64,000 nt of DNA from Yersinia kristensenii. GTDB lineage: Bacteria; Pseudomonadota; Gammaproteobacteria; Enterobacterales; Enterobacteriaceae. Positions 26,001-53,788 of the stretch are shown piece after piece. The DNA lies in the NCBI RefSeq assembly GCF_900460525.1, contig NZ_UHIY01000001.1, forward strand, positions 744,001-808,000, read 5' to 3'. The translations under genes were made by a program, and so were the position numbers. The stretch's first letter is position 1. Every line of letters starts with the position of its first letter. The notes under the pieces are model-generated. The model saw only the letters and a program-made list of their open reading frames with translations, was not told the origin of the DNA and searched no databases.

Positions 26001-26520
<520 letters not shown>

Positions 26521-26673
26521 TCATTCTTTATTGAGTGGGAAGTCTCTAACATTTATTTATATCGGCTATTTATTTATACCGATATATGTACACCGCGAAT
26601 ACTCGACGCACCAACAACAGGTTTTAAATCACCTCAGAATCATTACTTTTTTGTAAAATTTTTTTATCACTAA

Positions 26674-26685
26674 TTGTTATAACAA
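26674..26685. promoter_or_regulatory. Short palindrome upstream of the peptide-type ABC importer operon
   Basis: TTGTTATAACAA is a perfect 12-base palindrome about 160 bases before the first gene of the importer. It lies in a 374-base AT-rich gap that otherwise shows no gene. It could be an operator; no regulator family is identifiable. Confidence 0.3.
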
Positions 26686-26843
26686 ATAACTGTTGAGACT
26701 TTGACCACAGACAGCAAAGCTACTATTGTGAGAAAATGCGATGAAATAGTCGTAAAAACAATAATTTGCTATTGGTGTAACTCTTTAGCACCTGCAATAA
26801 CTTTATTAAAACACGATGGTTTAACCCATTTCAGGGAGCCTCA

Positions 26844-28412
26844 ATGAAAGCTAAAATTCTGTCATTATTGGTTTTGACAGCACTATCTGGCAGTGCTTTT
26901 GCAGCAACACCGCCAGATACGCTGGTTGTTGTACAATCCCTGGATGATATCGTTAGCCTTGACCCGGCTGAGAGTAATGAACTCTCCAGTATTCAGACCG
27001 TGCCAAGTCTCTATCAACGTCTGGTACAAGCTGATCGTGATAACCCGGCAAAAGTCGTGCCTATTCTTGCTGAAAGTTGGCAGGGCGATGCCGCCGCCAA
27101 AACTCTCACAGTGAAATTGCGTCCAGAAGCAGTATTTTCATCCGGTAATCCGGTGAAAGCTGATGACGTGATTTTCTCCTTTACTCGCGCGGTCAAAATG
27201 AACCGTTCACCGGCCTTTATCCTGAATGTATTGGGCTGGGATCCGAGTAATATTGATCAACACTTGAAGAAGATCGATAACAATACCGTGCAGCTGAGCT
27301 GGAGCGCAGATGTCAGCCCAGCAGTGGCGCTGAATATCTTATCAACGCCGATCGCCTCGATTGTTGATAAAAAAGCCGTCACCGCCAATGTTAAAGACGA
27401 CGATTACGGCAATGCTTGGTTGAAAATGCACTCAGCCGGTAGTGGCCCATTCAAAATGCGTGTTTATCAGCCGCATCAGGCCATCGTACTGGATGCTAAC
27501 CCGACATCACCTGGCGATAAGCCGCTGATTAAAAATATCATTATTAAAAATGTGCCCGATCCAAGTGCTCGCCGCTTGCTGATTCAGCAAGGTGATGCCG
27601 ATATCGCCCGTGAATTAGGGCCAGACCAAACTGCGGCACTGAAAACGCAGGCGGGGGTTAAAGTTGTCGAAATCCCGTCGGCCGAACAAAACTATTTGGT
27701 CTTTAACACCGCCAACCCGGCTAATCCGCTGTTAAGCAAACCTGAATTCTGGCAGGCTGCCCGCTATTTGGTTGATTATCAGGGTATTACCAAAGATTTA
27801 CTGAAAGGTCAGTATTTCGTGCATCAAAGTTTCCTGCCGGTCGGTTTGCCGGGCGCGTTGGAAAACAACCCGTACACCTTTGATCCGGCTAAAGCCAAAG
27901 ATATTCTGACCAAGGCCGGAATTAAAGATGCCACGCTGACACTGGATGTTGAGAACAAACCGCCATTCATTACCATTGCTCAGTCGCTGCAAGCCAGCTT
28001 TGCGCAGGGTGGCGTGAAATTGGTATTACTGCCCGCTGCGGGTAGCCAGGTTTATGGCCGCGTACGTGCCAAACAGCATCAGTCAGCTATCCGTCTGTGG
28101 ATCCCGGATTATTTTGATGCGCACTCTAACGCCAGCGCCTTTGCCTATAATGACGGCAAGAGCAGCACGGTTGCCGGTTTGAATGGCTGGGTTATTCCTG
28201 AGCTGAATAAACAAACACTGGCGGCAGTCGCCGAGTCCGATCCGGCCAAACGTATCGAGCTTTACACTCAGTTGCAGGAAGAGCTGCAAAAGAACTCGCC
28301 TTATATCTTTATTGATCAAGCCAAAGCACAAGTTGTGCTGCGAGATAATGTAAAAGGCTATCAACAAGGTCTGAATGCAGATATGGTCTATTATGACCGT
28401 GTCAGCAAGTAG
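26844..28412 (+). CDS. ABC transporter periplasmic substrate-binding protein (peptide/nickel type, SBP family 5)
   Basis: A 522-residue secreted protein. The signal peptide MKAKILSLLVLTALSGSAFA cleaves near Ala21. The mature part follows the family 5 layout, with an early PILAESWQ segment (the family's LAxSW) and a typical VKADDVIFSFTRAVK stretch. It is first of five genes coding a complete importer (binding protein, two permeases, two ATPases). The substrate (di- or oligopeptide, nickel chelate, or another small molecule) cannot be told from sequence. It begins with a clear GGGAG ribosome binding site. Confidence 0.9.
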   Translation: MKAKILSLLVLTALSGSAFAATPPDTLVVVQSLDDIVSLDPAESNELSSIQTVPSLYQRLVQADRDNPAKVVPILAESWQGDAAAKTLTVKLRPEAVFSSGNPVKADDVIFSFTRAVKMNRSPAFILNVLGWDPSNIDQHLKKIDNNTVQLSWSADVSPAVALNILSTPIASIVDKKAVTANVKDDDYGNAWLKMHSAGSGPFKMRVYQPHQAIVLDANPTSPGDKPLIKNIIIKNVPDPSARRLLIQQGDADIARELGPDQTAALKTQAGVKVVEIPSAEQNYLVFNTANPANPLLSKPEFWQAARYLVDYQGITKDLLKGQYFVHQSFLPVGLPGALENNPYTFDPAKAKDILTKAGIKDATLTLDVENKPPFITIAQSLQASFAQGGVKLVLLPAAGSQVYGRVRAKQHQSAIRLWIPDYFDAHSNASAFAYNDGKSSTVAGLNGWVIPELNKQTLAAVAESDPAKRIELYTQLQEELQKNSPYIFIDQAKAQVVLRDNVKGYQQGLNADMVYYDRVSK

Positions 28413-28461
28413 CGCTGATCTATCAATAAAGTTTTATGAAATATAGGTAGGTTGCTAGTCG

Positions 28462-29511
28462 ATGTCTGTAGCACTAAATCAAACGCCGGGAACCCTATCC
28501 CGGCGTCGTCTTTGGGGGTTTTTACAGGGATTATTGACCCTGGCCCTAACCTTGTTCGGTCTACTGGTTATCACCTTTTTCCTGTCGGCGCTGTCGCCGG
28601 TCGACCGGGTGTTGCAAATCGTGGGCGACCACGCCAGTGAGGCCACTTATCAACAAGTTAAACAACAACTTGGGCTGGATAAACCTTTGCCAGTGCAGTT
28701 CTGGCATTATCTGGAGCGGCTAGCCCATGGTGATCTGGGGATCGCCAGCGCCAGCGGTCAGCCGGTATTGCAAGATCTGCTAACGGTTTTCCCGGCCTCA
28801 TTGGAACTGGCAACATTATCGCTGGTGATTGGCGCGGCACTGGGGGTTATCCTCGGCTTGTTGTGCGCCCGCTGGGCCGGTAGCAAACTGGATGCCACTA
28901 TCCGCTTTATCACATTGCTGGGGAACTCCGTGCCCATCTTCTGGCTCGGTCTATTGATGCTGCTGCTGTTTTATGCACGGCTGCAATGGAGCCCCGGCCC
29001 CGGCCGCCTCGATGATATTTATCAATATACCGTGGAAGCAAAAACCGGTTTTGCCCTGATCGACACTTGGCGTTCGGGTGATGCCGGTGCCTTTGGCAAT
29101 GCTGTCGCCCATTTGATCTTGCCGGTTGCCCTGCTCTCTTACTACGCGCTTGCCAGTATTACTCGCCTGACACGCTCGGCCTGCCTGAGTGAGTTGAATA
29201 AAGAGTACATCACTCTGGCAAGAGCCAAAGGCGCGGGTGAGATGCGGATTTTACTGACCCACGTGCTGCCGAATATTCGGGGCACCTTGCTGACAGTGAT
29301 TGCGCTGGCCTATACCAGCATGTTGGAGGGCGCAGTATTAACCGAAACTGTCTTTGCCTGGCCCGGCATTGGCCGCTACCTCACCAGCGCGCTGTTTGCC
29401 GGCGATACCACCGCCATTATGGGGGGGACACTGCTGCTCGGTATGTGCTTTATTTTGATTAACAATGTGACGGATCTGCTGGTCCGCTTGCTGGATCCGA
29501 GAACGCGCTGA
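28462..29511 (+). CDS. ABC transporter permease (DppB/OppB type)
   Basis: A 349-residue inner-membrane permease with about six transmembrane helices and the cytoplasmic coupling motif LARAKGAGEMRILLTHVLPN, which docks to the ATPases. It is the second gene of the importer operon, 49 bases after the binding protein, and ends one base before the next permease. The ATG at 28462 is used; an overlapping frame at 28452 is not coding. Confidence 0.93.
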   Translation: MSVALNQTPGTLSRRRLWGFLQGLLTLALTLFGLLVITFFLSALSPVDRVLQIVGDHASEATYQQVKQQLGLDKPLPVQFWHYLERLAHGDLGIASASGQPVLQDLLTVFPASLELATLSLVIGAALGVILGLLCARWAGSKLDATIRFITLLGNSVPIFWLGLLMLLLFYARLQWSPGPGRLDDIYQYTVEAKTGFALIDTWRSGDAGAFGNAVAHLILPVALLSYYALASITRLTRSACLSELNKEYITLARAKGAGEMRILLTHVLPNIRGTLLTVIALAYTSMLEGAVLTETVFAWPGIGRYLTSALFAGDTTAIMGGTLLLGMCFILINNVTDLLVRLLDPRTR

Positions 29512-29512
29512 T

Positions 29513-30346
29513 ATGCCAATGACAAAATTCCTCCATGCGCTGAAACGTTCGCCCTCCACCAGCATCGGGCTGTTTATTCTCTCCTCGCTGGTGTTCATCG
29601 CGATTTTCGCCCCGTGGCTAGCGCCCTTTGATCCCAACTGGCAGAACGCGGCTGACCGCCTGCTACCGCCGGGTAGCGGCCACTGGCTGGGGACTGACAG
29701 CTATGGCCGCGATATGTTGTCGCGCCTGATTTACGGAACGCGCCCAACGCTGGGGCTGGTGCTGCTGGTGACCGTGATAACCCTGCCGCTAGGTTTGCTG
29801 GTCGGGGTGCTTTCCGGCTACTACGGCGGCTGGCTCGAACGCATTCTAATGCGCGTCACTGATGTAGTGATGTCAATGCCACGGCTGATTTTGGCTTTTG
29901 CCTTCGTCGCCATGCTCGGCCCCGGTTTGATTAACGGCGCACTGGCATTGGCGCTAACTACCTGGCCGGCCTATGCTCGTCAGGCCAGAGCCGAGATTCA
30001 ATTACTGCGTAAAAGTGATTATCTGGCCGCTGCTGAAATGATGGGAATCAAAGGGTTGCGGTTGCTGTGGGGCCATATTCTGCCTATGTGCCTCCCCTCG
30101 GCAGTGGTGCGGCTGGCATTGGATTTAGCCGGAATCATCCTGGCGGCGGCAGGGCTAGGTTTCCTCGGGTTAGGTGCCCGCCCGCCGATGTCTGAATGGG
30201 GCTCCATGGTCGCCGACGGTATGCAGGTTATTTTTGACCAATGGTGGATTGCTGCCATTCCGGGCTGCGCTATCTTACTGAGCAGTATGGCATTTAATCT
30301 GTTAGGCGACGGCCTGCGCGATATTTTGGACCCTCACCATGACTGA
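29513..30346 (+). CDS. ABC transporter permease (DppC/OppC type)
   Basis: A 277-residue partner permease. It has the N-terminal OppC-type segment with the first transmembrane helix, LGTDSYGRDMLSRLIYGTR, and the coupling motif AAEMMGIKGLRLLWGHILP. It starts one base after the preceding permease and its stop overlaps the first ATPase gene by 8 bases, so all are translated from one mRNA. Confidence 0.93.
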   Translation: MPMTKFLHALKRSPSTSIGLFILSSLVFIAIFAPWLAPFDPNWQNAADRLLPPGSGHWLGTDSYGRDMLSRLIYGTRPTLGLVLLVTVITLPLGLLVGVLSGYYGGWLERILMRVTDVVMSMPRLILAFAFVAMLGPGLINGALALALTTWPAYARQARAEIQLLRKSDYLAAAEMMGIKGLRLLWGHILPMCLPSAVVRLALDLAGIILAAAGLGFLGLGARPPMSEWGSMVADGMQVIFDQWWIAAIPGCAILLSSMAFNLLGDGLRDILDPHHD

Positions 30347-31217
30347 TAAAATTTTTGTGGTCGACAATTTATGTGTCGATTTTCAACAACAGCGGGTGGT
30401 GGATAATATTTCATTCCAGCTCGGCCACGAGCGGGTGGCACTGGTGGGGGAATCCGGTTCGGGCAAATCCATTACCGCCAGAGCGTTGATGGGGTTAGTG
30501 CGAGCACCGGGCAAAGTCAGTGCTAAAAAGCTGAGTTATTATGCTGATAACACCAACGAACAGGGCAATTCTGGCCAAGTTATCGAACACGATTTATTGC
30601 AACTGAAACCGAAGCAATGGGGCGCATTACGTGGCAGTGAAATTGCCATGGTGCTGCAAGACCCGCGCTATGCGCTGAATCCGGTACGCACCGTGGGGAA
30701 ACAAATTGAAGAATCTCTGCTGCTGCATAATGCGCTTTCTGGTGCAGATACACGCGAGCGGGTATTAAATGCGCTCGCCTCGGTGGGATTAAATGCCAGT
30801 GCCTATCACAGCTACCCCGGCCAACTTTCGGGTGGCATGGGTCAACGAGCGATGTTAGCCATCGCTTTGGTGAATAACCCACGGGTATTGATTGCTGATG
30901 AACCTACTTCCGCATTGGATGCCAAACTACGCAACCAAATATTGGAGTTGATTGTCGAGCAGACTGAGCAGCGCAATATGAGTTTGTTGCTGATAAGCCA
31001 CGACCTTCCGCTCGTCGCCGAGCATTGCCATCGGGTGTTGGTGATGTATCAGGGGAAATTGGTGGATCAAGGCGCGGCGGCTGACTTACCCTACTCAACT
31101 CACCCTTATACCCATACTTTGTGGGCCTGCCGCCCCAATGCCAGCACCTATGGCACTGATTTACCAGTATTAGATCGCAATGCTGATTTCTCTGGAGGTT
31201 CCCGTGGCACTGATTGA
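30339..31217 (+). CDS. ABC transporter ATP-binding protein (DppD/OppD type)
   Basis: A 292-residue ATPase with Walker A GESGSGKS, signature LSGGMGQRA and Walker B LIADEPTSALD. The signature has Gly where most relatives have Arg (LSGGMRQR), a small deviation. Unlike full OppD proteins it lacks the C-terminal Cys-rich iron-sulphur segment. It energises import together with the following ATPase, overlapping it by 14 bases. Confidence 0.92.
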   Translation: MTDKIFVVDNLCVDFQQQRVVDNISFQLGHERVALVGESGSGKSITARALMGLVRAPGKVSAKKLSYYADNTNEQGNSGQVIEHDLLQLKPKQWGALRGSEIAMVLQDPRYALNPVRTVGKQIEESLLLHNALSGADTRERVLNALASVGLNASAYHSYPGQLSGGMGQRAMLAIALVNNPRVLIADEPTSALDAKLRNQILELIVEQTEQRNMSLLLISHDLPLVAEHCHRVLVMYQGKLVDQGAAADLPYSTHPYTHTLWACRPNASTYGTDLPVLDRNADFSGGSRGTD

Positions 31218-31920
31218 AGTCAACAATTTGCAGGTCAGTTTTGCCCAGAAGAATCAGCTAAAAACGGCGGTTGAATCGGTCAGTTTTAGCGTTGAAGAGG
31301 GTGAGACTTTCAGTCTGATCGGCGCATCTGGCTGTGGTAAATCTACCGTGTTACGCACTCTGGCGGGTTTGCAGCGCGAGTGGCAAGGCGAGATAACCTT
31401 GCTGGGCCAACCTTTACAACCCGGGCACCGTTTTACCGGCCAACTGCGCAAAGAGGTGCAGATGGTATTCCAAGACCCTTATGCTTCTCTCCATCCCCAG
31501 CATAATATTCAGCGTACACTGGGTGAGCCGCTAAAGATTCATGGCGAGCAACATATTCAGCAGCGAATTGATCAGGCTTTAGAGCAAGTGGGCCTACCGG
31601 CTTCGGCGGCACAGCGCTACCCTCATCAATTCTCCGGCGGCCAGCGCCAGCGGATTGCTATCGCCCGCGCCCTGTTATTGCGGCCCAAATTATTGCTGCT
31701 GGATGAGCCGACCTCAGCATTAGATATGTCAGTTCAGGCGGAAATTCTCAATTTACTCAATCACTTGAAACGCGAACACGGCATGACCTATTTGTTAGTC
31801 AGTCACGACAGTGATGTGGTTGCACATATGTCCGAGCGCGCAGCCATGATGGAGAATGGGAAGATTGTGAGAGAGTTTACGCGGCGGGATCTTGAGTTAG
31901 CGGAACATTTTATGGGGTAG
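31204..31920 (+). CDS. ABC transporter ATP-binding protein (DppF/OppF type)
   Basis: The GTG at 31204 is chosen as start because it has the ribosome binding site TGGAGG 7-8 bases upstream and gives the normal N-terminus MALIEVNNLQVSF. This yields 238 residues. It shows Walker A GASGCGKS, signature FSGGQRQRIAIARAL and Walker B LLLDEPTSALD. It is the last gene of the importer operon and overlaps the preceding ATPase gene. Confidence 0.92.
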   Translation: MALIEVNNLQVSFAQKNQLKTAVESVSFSVEEGETFSLIGASGCGKSTVLRTLAGLQREWQGEITLLGQPLQPGHRFTGQLRKEVQMVFQDPYASLHPQHNIQRTLGEPLKIHGEQHIQQRIDQALEQVGLPASAAQRYPHQFSGGQRQRIAIARALLLRPKLLLLDEPTSALDMSVQAEILNLLNHLKREHGMTYLLVSHDSDVVAHMSERAAMMENGKIVREFTRRDLELAEHFMG

Positions 31921-44537: not shown

Positions 44538-45683
44538 TTAACTTTGCCACAACAGCCGGTCGCGCGATGTCAGGGTATCTGCTGGCAAAGTCGCGAGCAC
44601 CGCCTGATAACGTTTGGCCTCTTTGGGGTAACCCCTGGCCGCCTGTAATAACAGCCGCAAAGCACTGTCATAGTCGATGCCGCGCAAATCACGGTAAGGC
44701 CACAGTTCTGGTTCAGCAATAAATGGCAGCAAATAATCAATACCTTGCTGCACATTGCGGCCATCTTGTACCCAATCCCAGCGATCAATTTCAACATGTT
44801 CGCCGTAGCGGCACAGCAGCAAATGCGCCTCCATATTAAATAAGGAATAATGGAAAGGCACGGTGCGCTCCAGTTCCATCCACTGCTTACCGTCTTGCGC
44901 GATTTGTGCCGCCAGCCGTTGGGTAATTCCTTGACGGATAATGGTGGAAACCAGCCCACGATCGCCATAAAACATCGCATTTGCCGCGCGTTGCACGTCA
45001 TACCAAGTGCCGTGGTTGTTGTGCCAAACATATTCAGAATGGCCCACTTCGCTGTGGAACATCCAGTGGTTAAAGTCACGGAACCACTGCTGTAACACCG
45101 CGGTATCCTCGGTATCCAGTAGCTTGGCGGGCAATATCAACCCAATGGTATCAATCACCATCCACATCAGCCGGGTATCGATTAACCCTGTCCCACGGCC
45201 CGAAACAATGCCGGGGATGGCCTGACCATAATTCAGGTGCGGGTTCATGCGGGTTTTGGCATCTAAAAACCAACAACGGATCTGCTCTGCCGCCACCTGA
45301 GCATAGCGGCTATTGCCGGTAAAATAGTAAGCCAGCCCGAGGGTTAGGCAGCGGTCACACATCCGTTCAATGCGCTGGGTGTCAGTATCGTCATTTTGGC
45401 TCTGCGGATTGGTATGCCCATCGCGGCGCACATAGGGCAATCCATCGGGCTTACGCGGATTCGGCCACCAGTAAGTGCCAAAACTGTAATAATCGTGAAT
45501 ATCGCCACTGACGGGCAGTAGCGTCTTGTGTGTCACAGTCTCCGGCGGTTGATCGCGCAATGCATCGGCTTCACTTAATAACCGGCGCAATGCCGGTTGT
45601 AGAGGTGAAAATGGCTGCTGCAATACCGCTTTCGCCTTGGAAAGGCAGTCCACATCGAGCGTGTACAATTTCATTGGCGTCAT
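44538..45683 (-). CDS. Cytosolic alginate lyase-like protein (PL5-type)
   Basis: A 381-residue protein of the alginate-lyase (alpha/alpha-toroid, PL5-type) family without a signal peptide. The probable catalytic Asn-His is in HNNH at 221-224, with Arg273 and Tyr279 in LERTVPFHYS. Other family signatures are DYYSFGTYWWPNP and RMNPHLNYGQAIPG. It should cleave imported uronate oligomers by beta-elimination. It is the last gene of the unit formed with the ABC importer and is paralogous to the secreted protein at 50451. Substrate identity (mannuronate, glucuronate or other) is not settled by sequence. Confidence 0.83.
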   Translation of the reverse strand: MTPMKLYTLDVDCLSKAKAVLQQPFSPLQPALRRLLSEADALRDQPPETVTHKTLLPVSGDIHDYYSFGTYWWPNPRKPDGLPYVRRDGHTNPQSQNDDTDTQRIERMCDRCLTLGLAYYFTGNSRYAQVAAEQIRCWFLDAKTRMNPHLNYGQAIPGIVSGRGTGLIDTRLMWMVIDTIGLILPAKLLDTEDTAVLQQWFRDFNHWMFHSEVGHSEYVWHNNHGTWYDVQRAANAMFYGDRGLVSTIIRQGITQRLAAQIAQDGKQWMELERTVPFHYSLFNMEAHLLLCRYGEHVEIDRWDWVQDGRNVQQGIDYLLPFIAEPELWPYRDLRGIDYDSALRLLLQAARGYPKEAKRYQAVLATLPADTLTSRDRLLWQS

Positions 45684-45697
45684 GGGCGTTGCTTCCT

Positions 45698-46810
45698 TTA
45701 TGCAGCCTGACTGGCAACCCGCACGCCAGTGGCGGCATCAAAAATGTGGATACCGGCAAGCTTAGGCTGCAAATACACCGTCTCCCCTGCATTCACCGCC
45801 AAACGCTGTTTGAAGACCGAGGTAAAGCGGCCTCCGCCAGTGCTGCAAAATAGCTGCATATCCGAGCCGGTATTTTCAATGGCGGTAATGGTCGCTTTCA
45901 GGGCGCTGGCGTGGTGGGTTTCATCCACCACATTGACCTGCTCCGGACGAATGGCATACACCACATTTTGCCCATCAGTCACTTGCAAACCGGCTGGCAA
46001 GGTCAGCAAAGAGCCATCTTCCAGCCGTAGCAGGAATTCGCCACCTTGTTGTTGATCTCCAGTATTGAGCACCACGGTGCCTTTCAACTGGTTGATCTCC
46101 GGCGATCCAATAAAACCGGCCACAAATAAATTGGCTGGGCGATCGTAAAGATCCAACGGCGAGCCGACTTGCTCAATACGCCCGTCGCGCAACACCACGA
46201 TCATCTGCCCCATGGTCATAGCTTCAATCTGATCATGCGTCACATAGACGGAAGTGGTTTTCAGCCGTTGATGTAACTCGCGGATCTCGCCCCGCACCTG
46301 AGTACGCAATTTGGCATCCAGGTTCGACAAAGGCTCGTCGAACAAGAACACTTGTGGGTTACGCACAATGGCGCGGCCCATAGCCACCCGCTGGCGCTGA
46401 CCACCGGACAAGTCTTTCGGCAGCCGCTCCAACAATGTTTGTAAGCCCAATAACTCCGCCGTGGACTCCACTTTTGCATTGATATCGGCTTTGGACATTT
46501 TGGCCATTTTCAGCGCAAAGCCCATGTTCTCGCGCACTGTCATCTGCGGATAAAGAGCATAACTTTGGAACACCATAGCAATGTCGCGCATCTTGGGTTC
46601 AACATCAGTGACGTCTTTATCATTGATGCCCACCGTGCCACCGGAAATCTCCTCCAGCCCGGCGATCATACGCAGTAAGGTAGATTTTCCGCAGCCGCTT
46701 GGGCCCACTAACACGCAGAACTCACCGTCAGGGATTTCCAGCGATACATCGCGGATCACATGGGTGTCACCGTAAGATTTACAGACATTTTTAAGTACAA
46801 CCGATCCCAT
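45698..46810 (-). CDS. Sugar ABC transporter ATP-binding protein (UgpC/MsmK/AlgS type)
   Basis: A 370-residue ATPase of the carbohydrate importer class. It has Walker A GPSGCGKS, signature LSGGQRQRVAMGRAI and Walker B VFLFDEPLSNLD, followed by a C-terminal OB-fold (TOBE-type) regulatory domain from ~residue 240. It powers the two permeases encoded just upstream. The gap to the PL5-type gene is 14 bases, so the lyase is in the same operon. Confidence 0.93.
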   Translation of the reverse strand: MGSVVLKNVCKSYGDTHVIRDVSLEIPDGEFCVLVGPSGCGKSTLLRMIAGLEEISGGTVGINDKDVTDVEPKMRDIAMVFQSYALYPQMTVRENMGFALKMAKMSKADINAKVESTAELLGLQTLLERLPKDLSGGQRQRVAMGRAIVRNPQVFLFDEPLSNLDAKLRTQVRGEIRELHQRLKTTSVYVTHDQIEAMTMGQMIVVLRDGRIEQVGSPLDLYDRPANLFVAGFIGSPEINQLKGTVVLNTGDQQQGGEFLLRLEDGSLLTLPAGLQVTDGQNVVYAIRPEQVNVVDETHHASALKATITAIENTGSDMQLFCSTGGGRFTSVFKQRLAVNAGETVYLQPKLAGIHIFDAATGVRVASQAA

Positions 46811-46821
46811 TTTGTTTCTCC

Positions 46822-47661
46822 CTAGCCTTTAACCGCGCCAGACATGATCCCGCGATTGAAATGTTTTTGCAGACCCAGATACACGATGATGCTTGGCAAC
46901 ATCGCCAACAGAGTGATGGCAATAAAGATATTTGGTGTAATCGTCTCGTCAGTGCGTAATGTGCCGAGGATCACCGGAATAGTGTTCAAACTGTCCTGAT
47001 TCACCACAATCAGTGGCAACAGGTATTGGTCCCAAATCATGATGAAGCCGAAGGTCACCACCGTGCCCAATGCCGGTTTCACCAGCGGCAGGATGACGTG
47101 GAAGAAGATTTGCCACTCGCTGGCACCATCAATGCGCGCCGCCTCTTCCAGCTCTTTCGGGATAGCCGCCATGAACTCGGTCAACACGAAGATAGAGAAA
47201 GCCCAGCCCACCACCGGCAGGATCATGCCCAGATAGCTGTTGTACAGCGAGGCATCAATCACCGGCAGCCGCCAGTTGATGATCATATACAGCGGGATGG
47301 CGATAACTTCTTCCGGCAGCATCATGGTCGACAGAATAATCAAGCTGGTCAGCGAAACCCCGACAAACTTTTTACGCGCCAGCGCATACGCCGCCAGTGC
47401 ACTGACTGACACCTGTAAAACAGTGCCGAAGAACACCACGATGATGGAGTTCAGCAGATATTGCCAAACGCCGATATCCATCCAGGCGAAGATAAAGTTA
47501 TCCCACGAGAACTGATTGGGCCAGGCCAGCAACTCCCCAGGTTTTACCGGTGCGCCGCTGAATGCGGTGGCGATAATCCCCCAATAGGGGCCAACAAAAA
47601 CCACCAGCAACAGACCATAAATTACCCAGCGGCCGATACTGTTCCAACTTTTACTTTTCAT
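46822..47661 (-). CDS. Sugar ABC transporter permease (MalG/AlgM2 type)
   Basis: A 279-residue inner-membrane permease with about six transmembrane helices and the coupling motif EEAARIDGASEWQIFFHVILP. It works with the MalF-type partner. It is 11 bases from the ATPase gene and 19 bases from the partner permease gene. Confidence 0.93.
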   Translation of the reverse strand: MKSKSWNSIGRWVIYGLLLVVFVGPYWGIIATAFSGAPVKPGELLAWPNQFSWDNFIFAWMDIGVWQYLLNSIIVVFFGTVLQVSVSALAAYALARKKFVGVSLTSLIILSTMMLPEEVIAIPLYMIINWRLPVIDASLYNSYLGMILPVVGWAFSIFVLTEFMAAIPKELEEAARIDGASEWQIFFHVILPLVKPALGTVVTFGFIMIWDQYLLPLIVVNQDSLNTIPVILGTLRTDETITPNIFIAITLLAMLPSIIVYLGLQKHFNRGIMSGAVKG

Positions 47662-47680
47662 TACCAGTCTCCGGCTCGGG

Positions 47681-48565
47681 TTAGTAACGGGCTATACGCT
47701 TTTTCAATGTGAGATGACAAATAGTCAGCACCACAGTGAACGCGAATAACAGGAAGGACACCGCTGACGCATAACCATAGTCAAACTGCTCAAAGCCCAG
47801 CTTGTAGATATGCGTCATGATCATTTCTGTCGCATTAGACGGGCCGCCGCCAGTGGTGGCATAGACTTCAGCAAACACCCGGAAACCACGGATGAATGAC
47901 AGCATCAGCACCACAGAAAGCGCGGGGATCATGCCCGGCAAAGTGACGTAACGCAGGCGGTTCCACCAGTTAGCGCCGTCCACATTCGAGGCGTCGTACA
48001 AATCACGGCTAATCCCCACCAGACCGGCAATAAAGATAACCATGTTGTAAGGCACGGCTTTCCAGATATGCAGCAACATCACGGTCCAAAGCGCCTGATC
48101 GGTATCTGCCAGAAACCCCTGCGCTTCAATGCTGAACCATGACAAAACATGGTTCACCACCCCATTGCTGGTCGGGTTAAACAGAATTCGCCACATTTCG
48201 GCGACGATCGCCGCACTGGTCACCGCTGGCAAGAAGATGGCGGTACGGATAAAACGTAAATGCCGCGCCGGCCCTTCCAATAACATGGCTAAGAAGAAGG
48301 CGATAAAAGCGGCCACCACCATGGTGACCACCACATATAACAGGGTGTTGAAAACGGCAGAATGCAGTGCTTCATCACCCATCGCGCGGGAAAAGTTGTC
48401 AAACCCGACCCACTCATTTGGCTGGTTAAAGTTAACCTTGTAAAAACTCATCACCAACCCTTGCAGCATCGGGATGAATTTAAACCAGGTGAAGATGACC
48501 AGTGCCGGGGCCAGGAACAGCCACGGAACCAGATTACGTTTTAGTCGGGGGGTTAGCGTTATCAT
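47681..48565 (-). CDS. Sugar ABC transporter permease (MalF/AlgM1 type)
   Basis: A 294-residue permease with six or more transmembrane helices and the coupling segment YDASNVDGANWWNRLRYVTLP. It is the second gene of the unit, 7 bases after the binding-protein gene. It resembles permeases for oligosaccharides, including alginate importers of the AlgM1 type. Confidence 0.93.
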   Translation of the reverse strand: MITLTPRLKRNLVPWLFLAPALVIFTWFKFIPMLQGLVMSFYKVNFNQPNEWVGFDNFSRAMGDEALHSAVFNTLLYVVVTMVVAAFIAFFLAMLLEGPARHLRFIRTAIFLPAVTSAAIVAEMWRILFNPTSNGVVNHVLSWFSIEAQGFLADTDQALWTVMLLHIWKAVPYNMVIFIAGLVGISRDLYDASNVDGANWWNRLRYVTLPGMIPALSVVLMLSFIRGFRVFAEVYATTGGGPSNATEMIMTHIYKLGFEQFDYGYASAVSFLLFAFTVVLTICHLTLKKRIARY

Positions 48566-48572
48566 GATTTAC

Positions 48573-49886
48573 TCACTGCCCTAAAACATTCTGTTTAGCC
48601 AATTCATCATTCACTTTCTGATTCACTGCTTTTAATTCAGCAGGGATATCACTTTCACAGTTGGCTAAGATGCGGTTGAAACCCTCAGCAGTGACCTGAC
48701 GAATTGGCGTCCAGTTAGGTACTTGCGGAATATAGCGACCATGTTCGGCATACAAATCTGCAAACATTGCCCAGCGCGGGTCGTTATAAACCGCTTTGGT
48801 ATCAACCAGTTTGTTAATGGATAAGCGCACCACCGGCATATTATTGCTGCCCATTCCCATGCCGATTTTTTGCCCTTCAGGTGAAATCATGAATTCTATG
48901 AATTTCTGAGCAGCTTCTTTTTTCTCGCTGCTTTTCATCATAAATACCGTGGTGCCTTCAGCCAGTGTTGCCTGCCCTTTGGGTCCTTTTGGCGGCGGGA
49001 TCACTTCAAAAGCGTCTTTGCCGGGATCTTTATCAAAGAGAGCAATATGATATGGGCCGGTGACAAACATGCCGCTTTGACCAGAACGGAAAGAAGGAAT
49101 GGCATCGGCGGTAGTGGCGTTAATTGCCCCTGGTTGGACGGTTTTGTCGCACACCATGCCGCGAATGAAACTCAGTGTTTCAACCGCTGCGGGTTCTTCC
49201 AGTGAGCCTTTAAATTTGCCTTCACCGGCTGGACGAATGAAGTCACCCCCGGCTTGCCACAGATAGGAACTGATAAACCAGCTGGCGTAGCCACGGGTAG
49301 TGGAGGCGGGCAAAATAAAGCCGTAAGTGTCATTTTTGCCATTGCCATCGGGGTCATTAAAGGTAAATGCTTTGGCCAAGGTGCTGATATCTTCCCAGCT
49401 TTTCGGTAACTCTAAGCCCAGTTTTTCGCGCCAATCTTTACGGATAAACAAAGCAAAGGTTTGTGCTGAAGTTGGCACGCCATAATATTTACCGTCAATA
49501 TATTGGGCGCTCTGCCAAGCAGTATCTAAGACATCTGCCCCACCAATGATATTTTTTGGCTCGATCGGCTCAACAATACCGAGCTGGACAAACTGCCCGA
49601 TAGCCGCCGCATCATTGAAAATCAAGTCCGGCAGCGCGTTACCGGCCGCAGCCCTTGCCAGGCGCTGTTCAAAATCGGTGGTGGCATTGAAATATTCAAT
49701 TTTGATGCCGGTTTTCTTCTCAAAAGTGTCAGCTTCTGCTTTATAAATATTTTTTGAATCATTACTAGCGCGTATCCACACCTGTAATGTCTCTGCTGCG
49801 TGGAGAGAAGGAACCCCCATAGCTAAATAAGTTAACAACAGCAAAGATTTTATTTTTACTTTTGACATTATCATTTTTGTCTTCAT
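48573..49886 (-). CDS. Sugar ABC transporter periplasmic binding protein (SBP family 1)
   Basis: A 437-residue secreted protein. The signal peptide has a hydrophobic core SLLLLTYLAMGVPSLHA and cleaves near Ala30. Family features include FNDAAAIGQF and the SGQSGMFVTGPYHIALF segment. It is first gene of the importer-lyase unit and faces the secreted PL5-type gene across a 564-base regulatory region. It should bind uronate oligosaccharides released in the periplasm; this is inference from context. Confidence 0.9.
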   Translation of the reverse strand: MKTKMIMSKVKIKSLLLLTYLAMGVPSLHAAETLQVWIRASNDSKNIYKAEADTFEKKTGIKIEYFNATTDFEQRLARAAAGNALPDLIFNDAAAIGQFVQLGIVEPIEPKNIIGGADVLDTAWQSAQYIDGKYYGVPTSAQTFALFIRKDWREKLGLELPKSWEDISTLAKAFTFNDPDGNGKNDTYGFILPASTTRGYASWFISSYLWQAGGDFIRPAGEGKFKGSLEEPAAVETLSFIRGMVCDKTVQPGAINATTADAIPSFRSGQSGMFVTGPYHIALFDKDPGKDAFEVIPPPKGPKGQATLAEGTTVFMMKSSEKKEAAQKFIEFMISPEGQKIGMGMGSNNMPVVRLSINKLVDTKAVYNDPRWAMFADLYAEHGRYIPQVPNWTPIRQVTAEGFNRILANCESDIPAELKAVNQKVNDELAKQNVLGQ

Positions 49887-50185
49887 CTTAGCGTCCTCGT
49901 TGAAATCTAATTTTTATGAATTTACCCAGAAGTTTAAATAACAGAATAAAATCACTAAACACTCGATAACATTAGAACCCAGAGGAAAACAAAAAACTAC
50001 ACCATAAAAAACAAAACTTAATTCCATTTTAAAATTTCTGCTTAAGATCACATTTATAAAATGACTATAAATATAGATTTAATTAAATATCTCTTTAAAA
50101 GCAACAAGATAAAATCTTCATTTTAAAAATTAAAAAAAACTCGCAATTATTTAAATTGCCTAAAAAACGTCTAAAACAAAGATTT

Positions 50186-50207
50186 AATTTGATGACAATC
50201 ACAATTT
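50186..50207. promoter_or_regulatory. CRP-like site 1 in the polyuronate-locus divergent promoter
   Basis: AATTTGATGACAATCACAAT (22-base site ending TT) has the CRP half-site TCACA and a near-match TTTGA with correct spacing. It suggests catabolite control of one or both divergent units. Confidence 0.5.
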
Positions 50208-50233
50208 AAATCATTTATTCACAGATAATTTAT

Positions 50234-50255
50234 AAGATAGATCTAGATCACAAAA
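50234..50255. promoter_or_regulatory. CRP-like site 2 in the polyuronate-locus divergent promoter
   Basis: ATAGATCTAGATCACA at 50237-50252 matches the CRP core GTGATCTAGATCAC almost completely; only the leftmost half-site bases deviate. It lies 48 bases from the first site and about 200 bases before the secreted lyase gene. Confidence 0.6.
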
Positions 50256-50292
50256 GTCCTAAAACTTTGCCCTAGAATTCAAATCCATCAGA

Positions 50293-50311
50293 AATGGAAC
50301 AGCGTTCTCTT
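50293..50311. promoter_or_regulatory. KdgR-like site upstream of the secreted PL5-type gene
   Basis: AATGGAACAGCGTTCTCTT matches the KdgR consensus at about 15 of 19 positions. It lies ~140 bases upstream of the lyase ATG and downstream of the CRP-like sites, a good position for a repressor. The match is imperfect, so this is tentative. The rest of 49887-50450 is very AT-rich without genes. Confidence 0.35.
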
Positions 50312-50450
50312 TATTGATAACGTACCAAAAAAAATTAATAACCTTGTTTTTATAGGTAAGAAAAACTATTCATTGAAAATGGATAAATTAATTAAATTAA
50401 CCAAAACACTTTATTTTTAATCATGTAAATCATAAAAAAATAAGGAAAGT

Positions 50451-51686
50451 ATGATGAAAATGTTGGGTAAAAAAAACCTATTACTGGCTATTCTTCTCGG
50501 TTCTTCACCCTTTATTTACGCGGCAGAAAGCCATCCATTATTATTAAAAATGGATGATATAAACTATAGCATCGGCCAAATTAAACAAAACAACCCACTA
50601 TATGAAAAATCCTATAAAAATCTGATAGCTAAAGCCGACAAAGCCCTGAAAGCGCCACTCTATTCTGTCATGGATAAAAGCCTGTTAGCCGCCAGTGGCG
50701 ATAAACATGACTATTACAGCTTCCCGCCGTATTGGTGGCCGGACCCAAGTAAGAAAGACGGCATGCCTTATTTGCGTAAAGACGGCGAAACGAATCCCGA
50801 TGCCAATAGCGACGCGACGGATAAAAAACGCATGAACAGCTTCAGTGCCGATGTCTATTATCTGGCATTGGCTTATAGCTTTACCGGCAAGCCAGAGTAT
50901 GCCGAAAAAGCACGCGACTTATTGGTCAATTGGTTCGTCAACCCCAACACCCGCATGAACCCAAATCTGCAATATGCTCAAGCTATTCCGGGCATCAATG
51001 AGGGCCGAGGTATTGGCTTGATTGATAGTCGGGCTTTGGTAGACGTGATTGATGCTGTGGAATTGATAAGGCCCGCAAATGTCCTCAATGACGCCGACTA
51101 TCAAGCGATTAAACTTTGGTACAAAGATTTTTATCAATGGATGACTACCAGCCAGAATGGTTTTGAAGAGGATAATTGGCACAATAACCACGGCACCTAT
51201 TTTGATATGCAGGCCGCCTCTTTTGCCTTGTTCAGCGACCAAAAAGCCGCCGCACAAAAACGCTTGGAAATCACGCAACTGCGCAGAATTCCGTCGCATT
51301 TTGATATGCAGGGCCGACAAAATGCCGAATTGGAACGCACCCGCCCATGGCATTACAGTAATTTCCATCTGGAAGCCTACAACAAGCTGGGCCGCCTGGG
51401 TGAAGTGGCCGATAAAGATATCTGGAACTTTAGCCTTGATGAACACAGTTTGAAAAAAGGCTATCAATATGTCGCGGGCTTTATCAATACCGACCAAGTT
51501 TGGCCATACAAAGACTTGGACGGGGTACAAGATAAAAAAGCCTTGGTCAATATGATAACGGCCGCCCGCGCCTACCCGGCTGACGCTGATTTCCAACAGA
51601 AAGCGCAATACCTGATTACCCAATACCCGGATGCCGTTGAAATCCTGCTTTACCCAATAACACAGCCACTGAACACAAAAAAATAA
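50451..51686 (+). CDS. Secreted alginate lyase-like protein (PL5-type)
   Basis: A 411-residue protein with a signal peptide (MMKMLGKKNLLLAILLGSSP, cleavage near Ala24-25), so it acts in the periplasm or outside. The alpha/alpha-toroid lyase domain shows DYYSFPPYWWPDP, RMNPNLQYAQAIPG, HNNH at 244-247 and LERTRPWHYS with Arg296 and Tyr302. It is paralogous to the cytosolic enzyme at 44538. It should cut polyuronate chains into unsaturated oligomers for the neighbouring importer. It starts after a clear AAGGAAAG ribosome binding site and is followed after 22 bases by the heparinase II/III-type gene. Confidence 0.87.
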   Translation: MMKMLGKKNLLLAILLGSSPFIYAAESHPLLLKMDDINYSIGQIKQNNPLYEKSYKNLIAKADKALKAPLYSVMDKSLLAASGDKHDYYSFPPYWWPDPSKKDGMPYLRKDGETNPDANSDATDKKRMNSFSADVYYLALAYSFTGKPEYAEKARDLLVNWFVNPNTRMNPNLQYAQAIPGINEGRGIGLIDSRALVDVIDAVELIRPANVLNDADYQAIKLWYKDFYQWMTTSQNGFEEDNWHNNHGTYFDMQAASFALFSDQKAAAQKRLEITQLRRIPSHFDMQGRQNAELERTRPWHYSNFHLEAYNKLGRLGEVADKDIWNFSLDEHSLKKGYQYVAGFINTDQVWPYKDLDGVQDKKALVNMITAARAYPADADFQQKAQYLITQYPDAVEILLYPITQPLNTKK

Positions 51687-51708
51687 GCACCGCGAGGACA
51701 CACCAGAT

Positions 51709-53754
51709 ATGAAGCAGTTTACGGATCGGCAGATGGCTAAAATCCGCCAGCGCGTTGTGCAACATCAGGGAAATACAGTACAGCAACAGGGAAGTCCAGT
51801 GCAGCAGTCGGAGATTATTGCCACGCTGATTGCGGGTAATCAAGTGATTTTGGACTCGGAAACACAAGTCCCGACCACCGGTATCGCCACTTGGAACCAT
51901 TACTATTATTGCCCTGATCACGGTGTGATGTTGGAGTGGGATCGCCATTCACCGACTCAACACCGTTGCCCGATAGACTCTCATCTGTTTAGCGGAGAAC
52001 CCTATGATGGCGCCTGGTGGCGGGCGCTTAATGGCCTAAATGCCAAAGCCTGTAATCAGCTCGGTTTGCTGTGGCAACTGACTGGGGAAAGTCGTTACTT
52101 CAATAAAGTGCGGGATATTCTGATCAATTACGCCCGCTACTATCCTGACTATGAAGTTCATGGGGGTATTCCATACAACGGGCCGGGCAAGGCCAATGCA
52201 CAGACATTGTGTGAGGCCAATTGCCTGCTCGATTTTGCATTGGGTTATGATTTTATTGCTGATGCGCTCAGTCAGGAGCAACGCGACTGCATCGCCGGGC
52301 GTTTATTGCGGGAGGGTGCAGACTTCTTGATGCAACACCGCACCCGCCAGTTGCATAACCATGAAGTGAAGATCAGCAGCGCTATCGCGGTGATCGGCTT
52401 GATTCTTGAAGATGAACACTATGTTGAGTTTGCGGTAAATGCAGAGTATGGCCTGCGTTATCAGCTAGAACATGGCTTGTTTAATGAGGGATTATGGTTT
52501 GAAGGTTCAGTGCATTATCACTTTTATGCGCTGCAAGGTTTCTGGTCATTTGAGAAACTGGCCGCCGGTAGCCGCTACAGCCTGCTGGCATTGCCTTATT
52601 ACCGCGATATGCTCAGCTTCCCTTTAAAACTGCTGATGCCCGATGGCACATTCCCACGCATCAATGATTGTACTGCGGGTCAAGAGCAACTCAATCATGC
52701 CCATTTGTATGAGTTTGCTTTTAAAACCTATGGTAATGATGAATATGCTGCCGCCCTACAGCATATTTATCGCCATGAGCCGCGCCTAAATTTGGATGCT
52801 CTGCTGTATGGCGTTGAAGAATTACCATCACCAATGATTGATGTTATTCCCACAGATACACTGCATGCACCGGATTGTGGATTGACCATCTTACGCCAAC
52901 CGCAGTCTGGCCGTGCTTTACTGGTAAAACACAGCCCCTACGGGGGTGAGCATGATCATTATGATCGGCTGAATTTAATTCTGTTTGAGCAAGGACAGGA
53001 AATCCTGCCGGACTTAGGCACCACTGGCTATGGCGCACAGCTACATTATGGTTACTACAAAAATAGCGCCACTCACAATACGCTGAGTATTAACCAGGCA
53101 AATCAGCCGCCCGCTGTACCGGTGATTCATAACTGGCATCAATCGGCAAAATTTAGTTGGTTGGATACAGAGGTAGATTGGCGTAAAAAAGCGCCCGAGT
53201 TAGACAGCCATACGCGGGTTCAATGGGATTGCGAAGCTTATCGCGATGTAAAATTCCGTCGCCGTATTTTGTGGCTGGATGACGCCATTATTGACCTCAG
53301 CAGTATCGTTAATCCACATCAGCAAGAGTGGAATTGGACACTGCATATCGACGGTATGGCAATGGGCTCTGTGGGAGAAAGTGCCACCTTCAGCAACAAT
53401 GGGCCGATGCAATATTTACATCAGGTTACCACCCAACCACTCAATGGTGTGATTCAGTGTCACTATCAAACAGCGGCACGTCCGTTATCACTTTGGCTCG
53501 CCGCGGATGCCACCCTGTTTCAAGGGTTGGCACCGGCAAACCCGTCGGTGCGTGATATCAGTTATCTGATTTTGCGTCATCATCAACCCGAGTCACTGGT
53601 CACCTGCGTGTTTGATATGAATAACCACAATCCACTATTGAATGTTCAAGTGGACAATAATGGCGAGATATTATCCATCAAATTAACTCGTCAACAGCAG
53701 GTTATACAGGTGAATATTCCCTTTACCGACAATAGCCTACCGCTATTCAGTTAG
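51709..53754 (+). CDS. Heparinase II/III-family polysaccharide lyase (oligo-alginate lyase type, cytosolic)
   Basis: A 681-residue protein without signal peptide. The N-terminal alpha/alpha-toroid (~50-380) contains WNHYYYCPDHG, NHEVKISSAIAVIGLIL and EGSVHYHFYALQGFW. The C-terminal antiparallel beta-sandwich contains the heparinase II/III signature with GGEHDHYDRLNL and DLGTTGYG. The layout resembles exo-acting oligo-alginate lyases of families PL15/PL17 (Sphingomonas A1-IV, Agrobacterium Atu3025), which release unsaturated monouronates from imported oligomers. It is cotranscribed with the secreted PL5-type gene and followed by a terminator. Confidence 0.82.
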   Translation: MKQFTDRQMAKIRQRVVQHQGNTVQQQGSPVQQSEIIATLIAGNQVILDSETQVPTTGIATWNHYYYCPDHGVMLEWDRHSPTQHRCPIDSHLFSGEPYDGAWWRALNGLNAKACNQLGLLWQLTGESRYFNKVRDILINYARYYPDYEVHGGIPYNGPGKANAQTLCEANCLLDFALGYDFIADALSQEQRDCIAGRLLREGADFLMQHRTRQLHNHEVKISSAIAVIGLILEDEHYVEFAVNAEYGLRYQLEHGLFNEGLWFEGSVHYHFYALQGFWSFEKLAAGSRYSLLALPYYRDMLSFPLKLLMPDGTFPRINDCTAGQEQLNHAHLYEFAFKTYGNDEYAAALQHIYRHEPRLNLDALLYGVEELPSPMIDVIPTDTLHAPDCGLTILRQPQSGRALLVKHSPYGGEHDHYDRLNLILFEQGQEILPDLGTTGYGAQLHYGYYKNSATHNTLSINQANQPPAVPVIHNWHQSAKFSWLDTEVDWRKKAPELDSHTRVQWDCEAYRDVKFRRRILWLDDAIIDLSSIVNPHQQEWNWTLHIDGMAMGSVGESATFSNNGPMQYLHQVTTQPLNGVIQCHYQTAARPLSLWLAADATLFQGLAPANPSVRDISYLILRHHQPESLVTCVFDMNNHNPLLNVQVDNNGEILSIKLTRQQQVIQVNIPFTDNSLPLFS

Positions 53755-53767
53755 TCTTTTTCAGGAT

Positions 53768-53788
53768 GGGGCAATCATTGCCCCTCTT
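53768..53788 (+). terminator. Terminator after the heparinase II/III-family gene
   Basis: GGGGCAA and TTGCCCC (53768-53784) form a 7-bp stem with a TCA loop, followed by TCTTT. A second hairpin GGGGATAT / ATATCCCC at 53812-53834 follows it and may reinforce the boundary. Confidence 0.8.

Follow-up and report, generated by a model that had tools for sequence, protein, structure and literature searches.

A locus of Yersinia kristensenii encoding PL38-type and PL17-like lyases with an ABC importer, a candidate system for polyuronate utilisation

Which polymer would a Yersinia cell cut, import and digest with the products of a locus that encodes three polysaccharide lyases (PLs) and a sugar importer side by side? 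The question is raised by positions 44538..53754 of a stretch of 64,000 bases of the Yersinia kristensenii genome (bases 744001-808000 of contig 1 of the 4.73-Mb genome, referred to below as the window). Seven open reading frames (ORFs) were confirmed there in two divergent units, at the coordinates that had been given in an earlier reading of the letters alone (the sequence-only reading). The minus unit encodes a binding protein, two permeases, an ATPase and a PF05426 lyase, separated by intergenic gaps of 7-19 bases; the plus unit encodes another PF05426 lyase and, after a gap of 22 bases, a 681-aa protein with a Hepar_II_III_C domain (Table 1). Hydrophobic signal-like N-termini were found on the PF05426 lyase of the plus unit and on the binding protein, and on neither of the other two lyases. 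No side-chain hydrolase, esterase, sulfatase or hexosaminidase was found by Pfam among the seven genes. Support for a polyuronate import and depolymerisation system comes from the families, the N-termini, the synteny kept across genomes and the catabolic genes that accompany the locus in relatives; the most likely substrate appears to be a beta-linked glucuronate homopolymer (glucuronan-like), the locus feeding the KduI/KduD route, a reading to which we give a probability of roughly one half.

The two smaller lyases, 41% identical to each other, had been labelled PL5-type, a label that gave way in a phmmer search against PDB. Both match 3nfv as well as 8bdq and its variants (E 1.1e-77 to 1.6e-47), and PL5 membership was rejected, as no chain recognised as PL5 appeared among the matches to E = 1; PL5 structures exist in PDB. 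The entry 8bdq is, as we take it, the PL38 enzyme BoPL38, and the strong similarity of both proteins to it (E 1.6e-48 and 1.1e-61) supports PL38 membership. The residues N245-N246-H247, R296 and H301-Y302 (numbering of the secreted lyase) are conserved in 72/72 aligned rows, and the catalytic role of the Asn-His, Arg and His-Tyr residues is presumed from related lyases. In a tree of PL38 proteins of at least 300 aa, from which L074-L077, L079, L081, L084, L085, L087, L119 and L134 were omitted, the cytosolic-type enzymes form one clade (21 rows) and the secreted-type enzymes another (23 rows), with support of 100/99; since each is a single clade across these genera, the pair is old. The cytosolic-type enzyme probably starts at the second Met (MKLYTL), as in several homologues. 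Characterised PL38 enzymes act on alginate, glucuronan or glycosaminoglycans (PMC13027841, PMC11790493, PMC9029943; here and below, statements on cited papers refer to the sections covered).

Two further observations concern this family. A third, divergent PL38 gene (G000:C1:2844025-2844996; L010 9274-10638) encodes a protein with a signal-like N-terminus on a very long branch, beside a gene which, judging from its sequence, we take to be porin-like; having no recognised partner within 20 kb, this long-branch relative was set aside as a part of the system. An extra copy of the secreted-type PL38 gene lies 3' of the PL17 gene in an uncultured Cedecea and in Klebsiella sp. BIGb0407 (L098 and L106).

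The large lyase had been described as heparinase II/III-type. The Hepar_II_III_C domain is indeed present, and PL17-like is the better label, since PL17 chains of PDB far outscore heparinase: the seven top matches are alginate-lyase/PL17 chains (E 3.4e-23 to 1.5e-18), the sole heparinase chain among the matches has E 0.011, and the PL17 similarity spans the toroid and reaches the heparinase II/III-like C-terminal domain. The protein is 39-96% identical to 30 members of its own clade and 23-27% identical to 11 alginate-type PL17s of related genomes. Two of the 11 were compared with the seven PDB PL17 alginate lyase chains and match each of them with E 1e-124 or lower, against 3.4e-23 at best for the window protein. 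These pairwise identities, used in place of published subfamily references, suggest that it stands outside the alginate-lyase type and fits PL17 subfamily 1. With NCBIfam NF042990 (oligoalginate lyase) it scores 93 bits against a cut-off of 1400, which is no fair test because two alginate-type PL17s miss it too (812 and 527 bits). In an alignment of 31 of the available PL17 rows, HNH 216-218, Y270 and YGGEHDHY 411-418 are invariant in the PL17-like clade; Y270 aligns with a tyrosine position that reads A in PDB chain 4ojz and that is presumably Y258 of Alg17c. The closest named protein is that of Y. thracica (96% identical), and those of Y. similis, which belongs to the pseudotuberculosis group, are 80-83% identical. 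A CPxH...CPxD motif precedes the toroid (residues 68-90), with C68, P69, C87 and P88 invariant in the clade and H71 and D90 nearly so; its counterpart in Lacrimispora reads CPKC...CPAC, and this stretch of the clade is a possible metal ribbon.

The full sugar ATP-binding cassette (ABC) importer foreseen from the letters was confirmed by Pfam, which finds the ATPase, both permeases and the binding protein. In the PDB search the permeases resemble AlgM1 and AlgM2 of Sphingomonas, with trehalose importers scoring about equally.

Table 1. Features of the lyase-importer locus, in coordinates of the window
Feature	Position	Strand	Evidence
PL38-type lyase, no signal peptide, presumed cytosolic	44538..45683	-	PF05426 E 2.9e-82; PDB 3nfv E 1.1e-77, 8bdq E 1.1e-61; N-terminal hydropathy 0.54
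ABC importer ATPase, MalK/UgpC type	45698..46810	-	468 bits with NCBIfam UgpC subfamily (cut-off 432); 45% identity with TogA of the genome
ABC importer permease 2, UgpE/MalG type	46822..47661	-	PF00528 E 1e-19; AlgM2 E 1.2e-19, third after two SugB chains
ABC importer permease 1, UgpA/MalF type	47681..48565	-	PF00528 E 2.1e-11; AlgM1 top PDB match, E 1.3e-27
Periplasmic solute-binding protein, signal-like N-terminus	48573..49886	-	SBP_bac_1 E 1.2e-37; N-terminal hydropathy 1.97
Divergent AT-rich promoter region, 564 bases	49887..50450	.	sequence
Second weak KdgR-like site, importer side	50010..50028	.	3 mismatches; 2 mismatches in some Yersinia
CRP-like site TTTGA-N6-TCACA	50188..50203	.	one mismatch in 14/15 Yersinia rows; one-mismatch site somewhere in the region in 7/11 rows of other genera
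Weak KdgR-like operator, suggestive only	50293..50311	.	3 mismatches; PWM p 0.075 for this site and between 0.005 and 0.36 across 25 related rows
PL38-type lyase, predicted signal peptide, presumed periplasmic or secreted	50451..51686	+	PF05426 E 3e-77; PDB 3nfv E 1.7e-69, 8bdq E 1.6e-48; N-terminal hydropathy 2.10
PL17-like lyase, no signal peptide	51709..53754	+	PF07940 E 2.9e-16; PDB PL17 chains E 3.4e-23 to 1.5e-18; 31-row alignment
Terminator-like hairpin, 13 bases 3' of PL17 gene	53768..53784	+	hairpin scan

The PL17 gene is present in 19/25 Yersinia genomes, with exactly one copy in each matching genome. Across the order, 74/394 genomes have a PL17 match at E 1e-3 or better, 19 of them (three being Yersinia) at an identity of at least 51%. 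Neighbourhoods were tallied for 83 of the 84 loci L074-L157 (one without a labelled PL17 was dropped), the labels being best BLAST matches at E 1e-12 with no identity floor and duplicates being retained (L091/L119 from one species, L121/L133 from one contig, L077/L086 from one genome). Every one of the 14 Yersinia loci whose flanks suffice (13 genomes) keeps the seven-gene set, which L079 is too short to show. The ABC-type set (intracellular PL38, ATPase, binding protein, secreted PL38 and PL17) recurs in 15/68 non-Yersinia loci, from Edaphovirga, Serratia, Buttiauxella, Cedecea, Raoultella, Klebsiella, Enterobacter and a metagenome-assembled genome (MAG); both permeases are labelled in 13 of these, and the remaining two lack one label each. 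One contig named Chryseobacterium (L143) has an enterobacterial gene order and a PL38 that falls among those of Enterobacteriaceae, and is probably a contamination or a mislabelled assembly.

Other relatives carry the lyases with other importers. Surveys of such loci, one of them covering 64 loci out of L088-L157 (of these 70, L093 from Yersinia as well as L109, L119, L134, L154 and L157 were omitted), found PL38-PL17 with an MFS importer, which is often accompanied by a KdgM-type porin and in some cases by KdgF, in Citrobacter, Lelliottia, Trabulsiella and others, and UxaC near PL17 in many loci of Vibrio, Psychromonas, Photobacterium, Neiella and Aliagarivorans, part of which also contain an SSF symporter, KduD, KdgF, an RpiB-family isomerase and KdgR. 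Within 10 kb, the 68 non-Yersinia loci yielded the secreted PL38 type in 35 cases, UxaC in 22, SSF in 19, the cytosolic PL38 type, KdgF, KduD and MFS in 15, 15, 14 and 14, the RpiB type and KdgR in 11 each, PL7 and KdgK in four each, and Ogl and KduI in three each. RpiB-family DhuI can stand in for KduI, and kduD-KdgF-dhuI gene orders have been described (PMC12838403); we infer that the RpiB-type protein of Vibrio is DhuI. A beta-helix-like protein (about 670 aa where complete) has PL38 and an SSF symporter, and in most cases a KdgM-type porin too, as neighbours in L131, L133, L136, L137 and L144; in some Vibrio loci it scores 26.6 bits with PF12708, below the cut-off of 27, and it could be a further uronan lyase.

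The linkage was compared with that of alginate-type PL17 genes. The first set, from marine relatives, consisted of the 14 non-ABC loci of the order sample with a PL17 of the locus type (L060-L073, of which L064 spans 5.3 kb; the ABC-type L058 and L059, both without UxaC, were omitted), and the second of 20 loci hand-picked from the alginate-type PL17 matches, mostly from the top of the list; the references for UxaC, RpiB, KdgF, KdgR and SSF were drawn from loci of the first type. UxaC was found in 14/14 loci versus 0/20 (Fisher p 7e-10; 14/16 if the two ABC-type loci are added), the RpiB type and KduD at an identity of at least 50% each in 8/14 versus 0/20 (p 2e-4 for each), KdgR in 7/14 versus 0/20 (p 6e-4) and PL38 in 4/14 versus 0/20 (p 0.02), all of these p-values being too small because the rows are related. 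The SSF symporter occurred in 11/14 and 8/20 loci, respectively, while MFS (1/14 versus 9/20) and PL7 (0/14 versus 4/20) were commoner in alginate-type loci. At E 1e-12 and any identity, no UxaC, RpiB, KduI or KdgR was found in the 20 alginate-type loci. Both kinds of locus coexist in five genomes (G058, G079, G106, G117 and G122).

The absence from the window of an outer-membrane channel and of enzymes for the monouronate, already pointed out by the sequence-only reading, holds, as genome-wide family searches place the KduI and KdgM matches outside the window only. The proposed check for KdgM-type channels elsewhere in the genome found two KdgM porins. KduI (451 bits, cut-off 250) and KduD (447 bits, cut-off 338.85) were identified by NCBIfam in a pectin locus with Tog-like importer genes, whose names we assigned from sequence and order, and a KdgM gene; the stronger of the two KduI-family matches in the genome is IolB. 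Some 0.25 kb separate KduI from a KdgF relative (E 1e-24), and the interval contains a perfect KdgR box; KdgK (536 bits, cut-off 400) is encoded 5.6 kb from the other KdgM, and UxaC is present above its cut-off. KduI or DhuI, as well as KduD, act on the threo product that arises from pectin and glycosaminoglycans (PMC12838403). No GH88/GH105 match was found in the host genome, in a search whose positive control matched in three genomes; such a match is present in 2/18 other PL17-bearing Yersinia genomes and in 9/34 of all PL17-bearing genomes searched. An unsaturated disaccharide with an amino sugar could therefore not be opened by that route, which argues against glycosaminoglycans.

The sequence-only reading knew of no such system described in Yersinia; a PL17 gene of the genus is already in the literature. 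Mathieu et al. (2018) cloned PL17 proteins of two Yersinia species (Yent36911 and Ypes3069) and placed them in PL17 subfamily 1, where they degraded neither alginates nor any of the oligo- or polysaccharides used, among which the panel lists hyaluronan, chondroitin, dermatan, heparin, heparan sulfate and heparosan; the authors propose unknown substrates for this clade, and of the two active members of the subfamily one cuts hyaluronan and the other polyglucuronate (PMC5966431). The genus and the single PL17 copy per matching Yersinia genome make these proteins very probably orthologues of the window protein. The gene is thus in print without a function, and the locus, the importer and the PL38 partners are not described in the sections of that paper covered here (PMC5966431). 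No publication describing the locus was found by title and abstract among the listed literature on PL38, PL17, alginate lyases, glucuronan and Yersinia, most subscription journals lying outside the search. For Y. enterocolitica, a term search in the covered part of a KdgR regulon study found no mention of alginate, heparin or KduI (PMC5559549).

These data may be joined in the following mechanism. The polymer would cross the outer membrane, for which a KdgM-type porin encoded elsewhere could serve, and would then be cut by the secreted PL38 lyase. The binding protein and the ABC importer would take in unsaturated oligouronides, and the cytosolic PL38 and PL17-like enzymes would cut these to unsaturated monouronate plus the saturated end residue. 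KdgF, KduI and KduD of the pectin locus might convert the unsaturated sugar to 2-keto-3-deoxygluconate (KDG) for KdgK, and UxaC might handle saturated glucuronate. A glucuronan-like substrate is favoured by the occurrence of glucuronan lyases in PL38 as well as in PL17 subfamily 1 (PMC13027841, PMC5966431).

Several findings weigh against this reading. No UxaC is encoded in the Yersinia-type locus itself, so that the substrate is deduced by extension from relatives with a PL17 of about 48-56% identity, and UxaC serves galacturonate as well. The two Yersinia PL17s were inactive in a study that had polyglucuronate available (PMC5966431). KduI was missing from all 14 order loci in the comparison and from the 20 alginate-type loci, and was near only 3/68 non-Yersinia loci, while the RpiB-type protein is only a 'hypothetical protein' in NCBIfam. 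KdgK (17/20 versus 2/14) and KdgF (16/20 versus 5/14) are commoner in alginate-type loci. A PL7-type alginate lyase gene stands beside KduD-UxaC-PL17 in four Vibrio loci (L117, L123, L126 and L127; shown by Pfam on one), the pectin gene Ogl occurs in three loci of relatives, and the evidence for a KdgR operator is weak in the window. The four Vibrio loci combine two uronate toolkits, with KdgF and SSF between PL7 and the rest where visible.

With these points included, a glucuronan-like polymer ranks above another or decorated uronide, followed by alginate and then by a glycosaminoglycan. Some other, or more elaborate, uronide from plants, algae or microbes (of the galacturonan type, a decorated glucuronan or a saponin glycan) would explain the negative published screen, whose authors themselves suggest unknown substrates for the clade (PMC5966431). 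The proximity of Ogl, PL2 and Tog genes in a few relatives and the link to pectin-type catabolic genes point in the same direction, whereas a locus of lyases and an importer only, with no side-chain hydrolase or esterase, suits a plain polymer. We know of no galacturonan lyase in PL38 or PL17, and consider a complex uronide unlikely, though worth keeping in mind. Utilisation of alginate as in Sphingomonas A1, in which oligo-mannuronate or -guluronate is imported and cut to 4-deoxy-L-erythro-5-hexoseulose uronate (DEH), would agree with the likeness of the permeases to AlgM1/AlgM2, with the PL7 gene adjoining a related PL17 in the Vibrio loci and with two PL38 enzymes, Aly38A and BoPL38, that cut alginate (PMC13027841, PMC9029943). 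The window PL17 stands outside the alginate type, however, the linkage to UxaC, the RpiB type, KduD and KdgR is absent from the 20 alginate-type loci, and Yersinia PL17 proteins were inactive on alginate (PMC5966431). A PL7 search of the host genome gave no match, which counts for little because its control gave no match either. Alginate was lowered from first choice by the UxaC comparison and the published Yersinia screen, and is now rather improbable.

Two explanations lie further from a glucuronan-like nutrient. Host hyaluronan or chondroitin might be the substrate, given that the PL38 members RiPL38 and Amuc_0778 cut glycosaminoglycans (PMC13027841, PMC11790493), that one PL17 subfamily 1 enzyme cuts hyaluronan (PMC5966431) and that a Yersinia strain is cited as the source of a glycosaminoglycan lyase belonging to a different family (PMC13027841); the Yersinia PL17s were nevertheless inactive on the panel that included glycosaminoglycans (PMC5966431). 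GH88/GH105 is missing from the host genome and from most other PL17-bearing Yersinia (with the caveat that nine of the 34 PL17-bearing genomes have one), and no sulfatase or hexosaminidase is among the seven genes, so that we judge this very unlikely. AlgL-like periplasmic lyases turn over the cell's own exopolysaccharide in Pseudomonas, which speaks for such turnover, rather than nutrition, as the role of the locus. A dedicated importer, two lyases without signal peptides and a CRP-like site oppose it, and no polysaccharide synthesis gene was found among the 17 window proteins scanned with Pfam; it is hardly to be expected.

Set beside known systems, the locus resembles Sphingomonas A1 in its binding protein and ABC importer for oligouronides and in its intracellular lyases, with AlgM1 as the top PDB match of permease 1. 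The alginate lyases of Sphingomonas A1 belong to PL5, PL7 and PL15; this set was not found at the Yersinia locus, which uses PL38 and PL17-like enzymes, has a secreted lyase and probably has another substrate. The alginate parallel drawn by the sequence-only reading is not supported, given the PL38 and non-alginate PL17 lyases, the linkage to UxaC, KduD, RpiB and KdgR, and the inactive Yersinia PL17s (PMC5966431). Yent36911 and Ypes3069 are likewise Yersinia PL17 genes, one per matching genome, but the published work covered the PL17 protein alone and found no substrate, as far as its covered sections go (PMC5966431). The TogMNAB/KduI/KduD route of Yersinia and Dickeya, present in the host genome, is similar in importer type, KdgM-type porins and KduI/KduD; it is a separate locus that uses PL2/Ogl in place of PL38/PL17, and the Tog binding protein shares with that of the locus a match of 45 residues only. 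The PL38 lyases CUL-I, TpPL38A, Aly38A, BoPL38, RiPL38 and Amuc_0778 are of the same family by sequence, via 8bdq, but none is described, in the sections covered, as the partner of an ABC importer and of a second PL38 that lacks a signal peptide.

A wider proposal, which we put forward as tentative, is that an old enterobacterial polyuronate system exists in most Yersinia genomes examined, in which a secreted PL38, a dedicated ABC importer and an intracellular PL38/PL17 pair form a further route into the KduI/KduD hub, beside the SSF, MFS-porin and Sus-type routes, for a polyuronide absent from standard lyase screens. The locus provides a genomic context, and a substrate class that can be tested, for the Yersinia PL17 enzymes left as orphans in the literature, and suggests that a polyuronate other than pectin serves as food for many Yersinia species and environmental enterobacteria. 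The annotation 'alginate lyase family' in enterobacteria need not imply alginate.

The locus is probably under CRP control, judging from the site in the divergent promoter region, which was compared in 15 Yersinia rows (one genome being included twice) and 11 rows of other genera. The site lies at -258 to -266 from the PL38 start in 13 Yersinia rows, and further away in Y. massiliensis, where the region is longer. The scans used the general CRP and KdgR consensus sequences. Control by KdgR is possible. Its sites were assessed by pattern and by position weight matrix (PWM) with shuffles, and the operator is kept as suggestive only because the window site has p 0.075 and several rows of relatives are weaker (two of Y. 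similis with p 0.32 and 0.36, one of Serratia with 0.19, Buttiauxella with 0.12); the rows with p of at most 0.03 include G019, G006, Y. massiliensis, Y. aleksiciae, Y. pekkanenii, Edaphovirga, 3/4 Serratia, Raoultella, Enterobacter and one MAG. The hairpin 3' of the PL17 gene is weak as sole evidence of a terminator, because the scan of the region gave 15 sites against 12.8 expected. Elsewhere in the window, in the region 26011-31920, a YhcH-family gene and the operon of an SBP_bac_5 oligopeptide-type ABC importer flank a perfect KdgR box (26493-26511), of which the genome has three in all; the operon may encode another importer linked to uronates.

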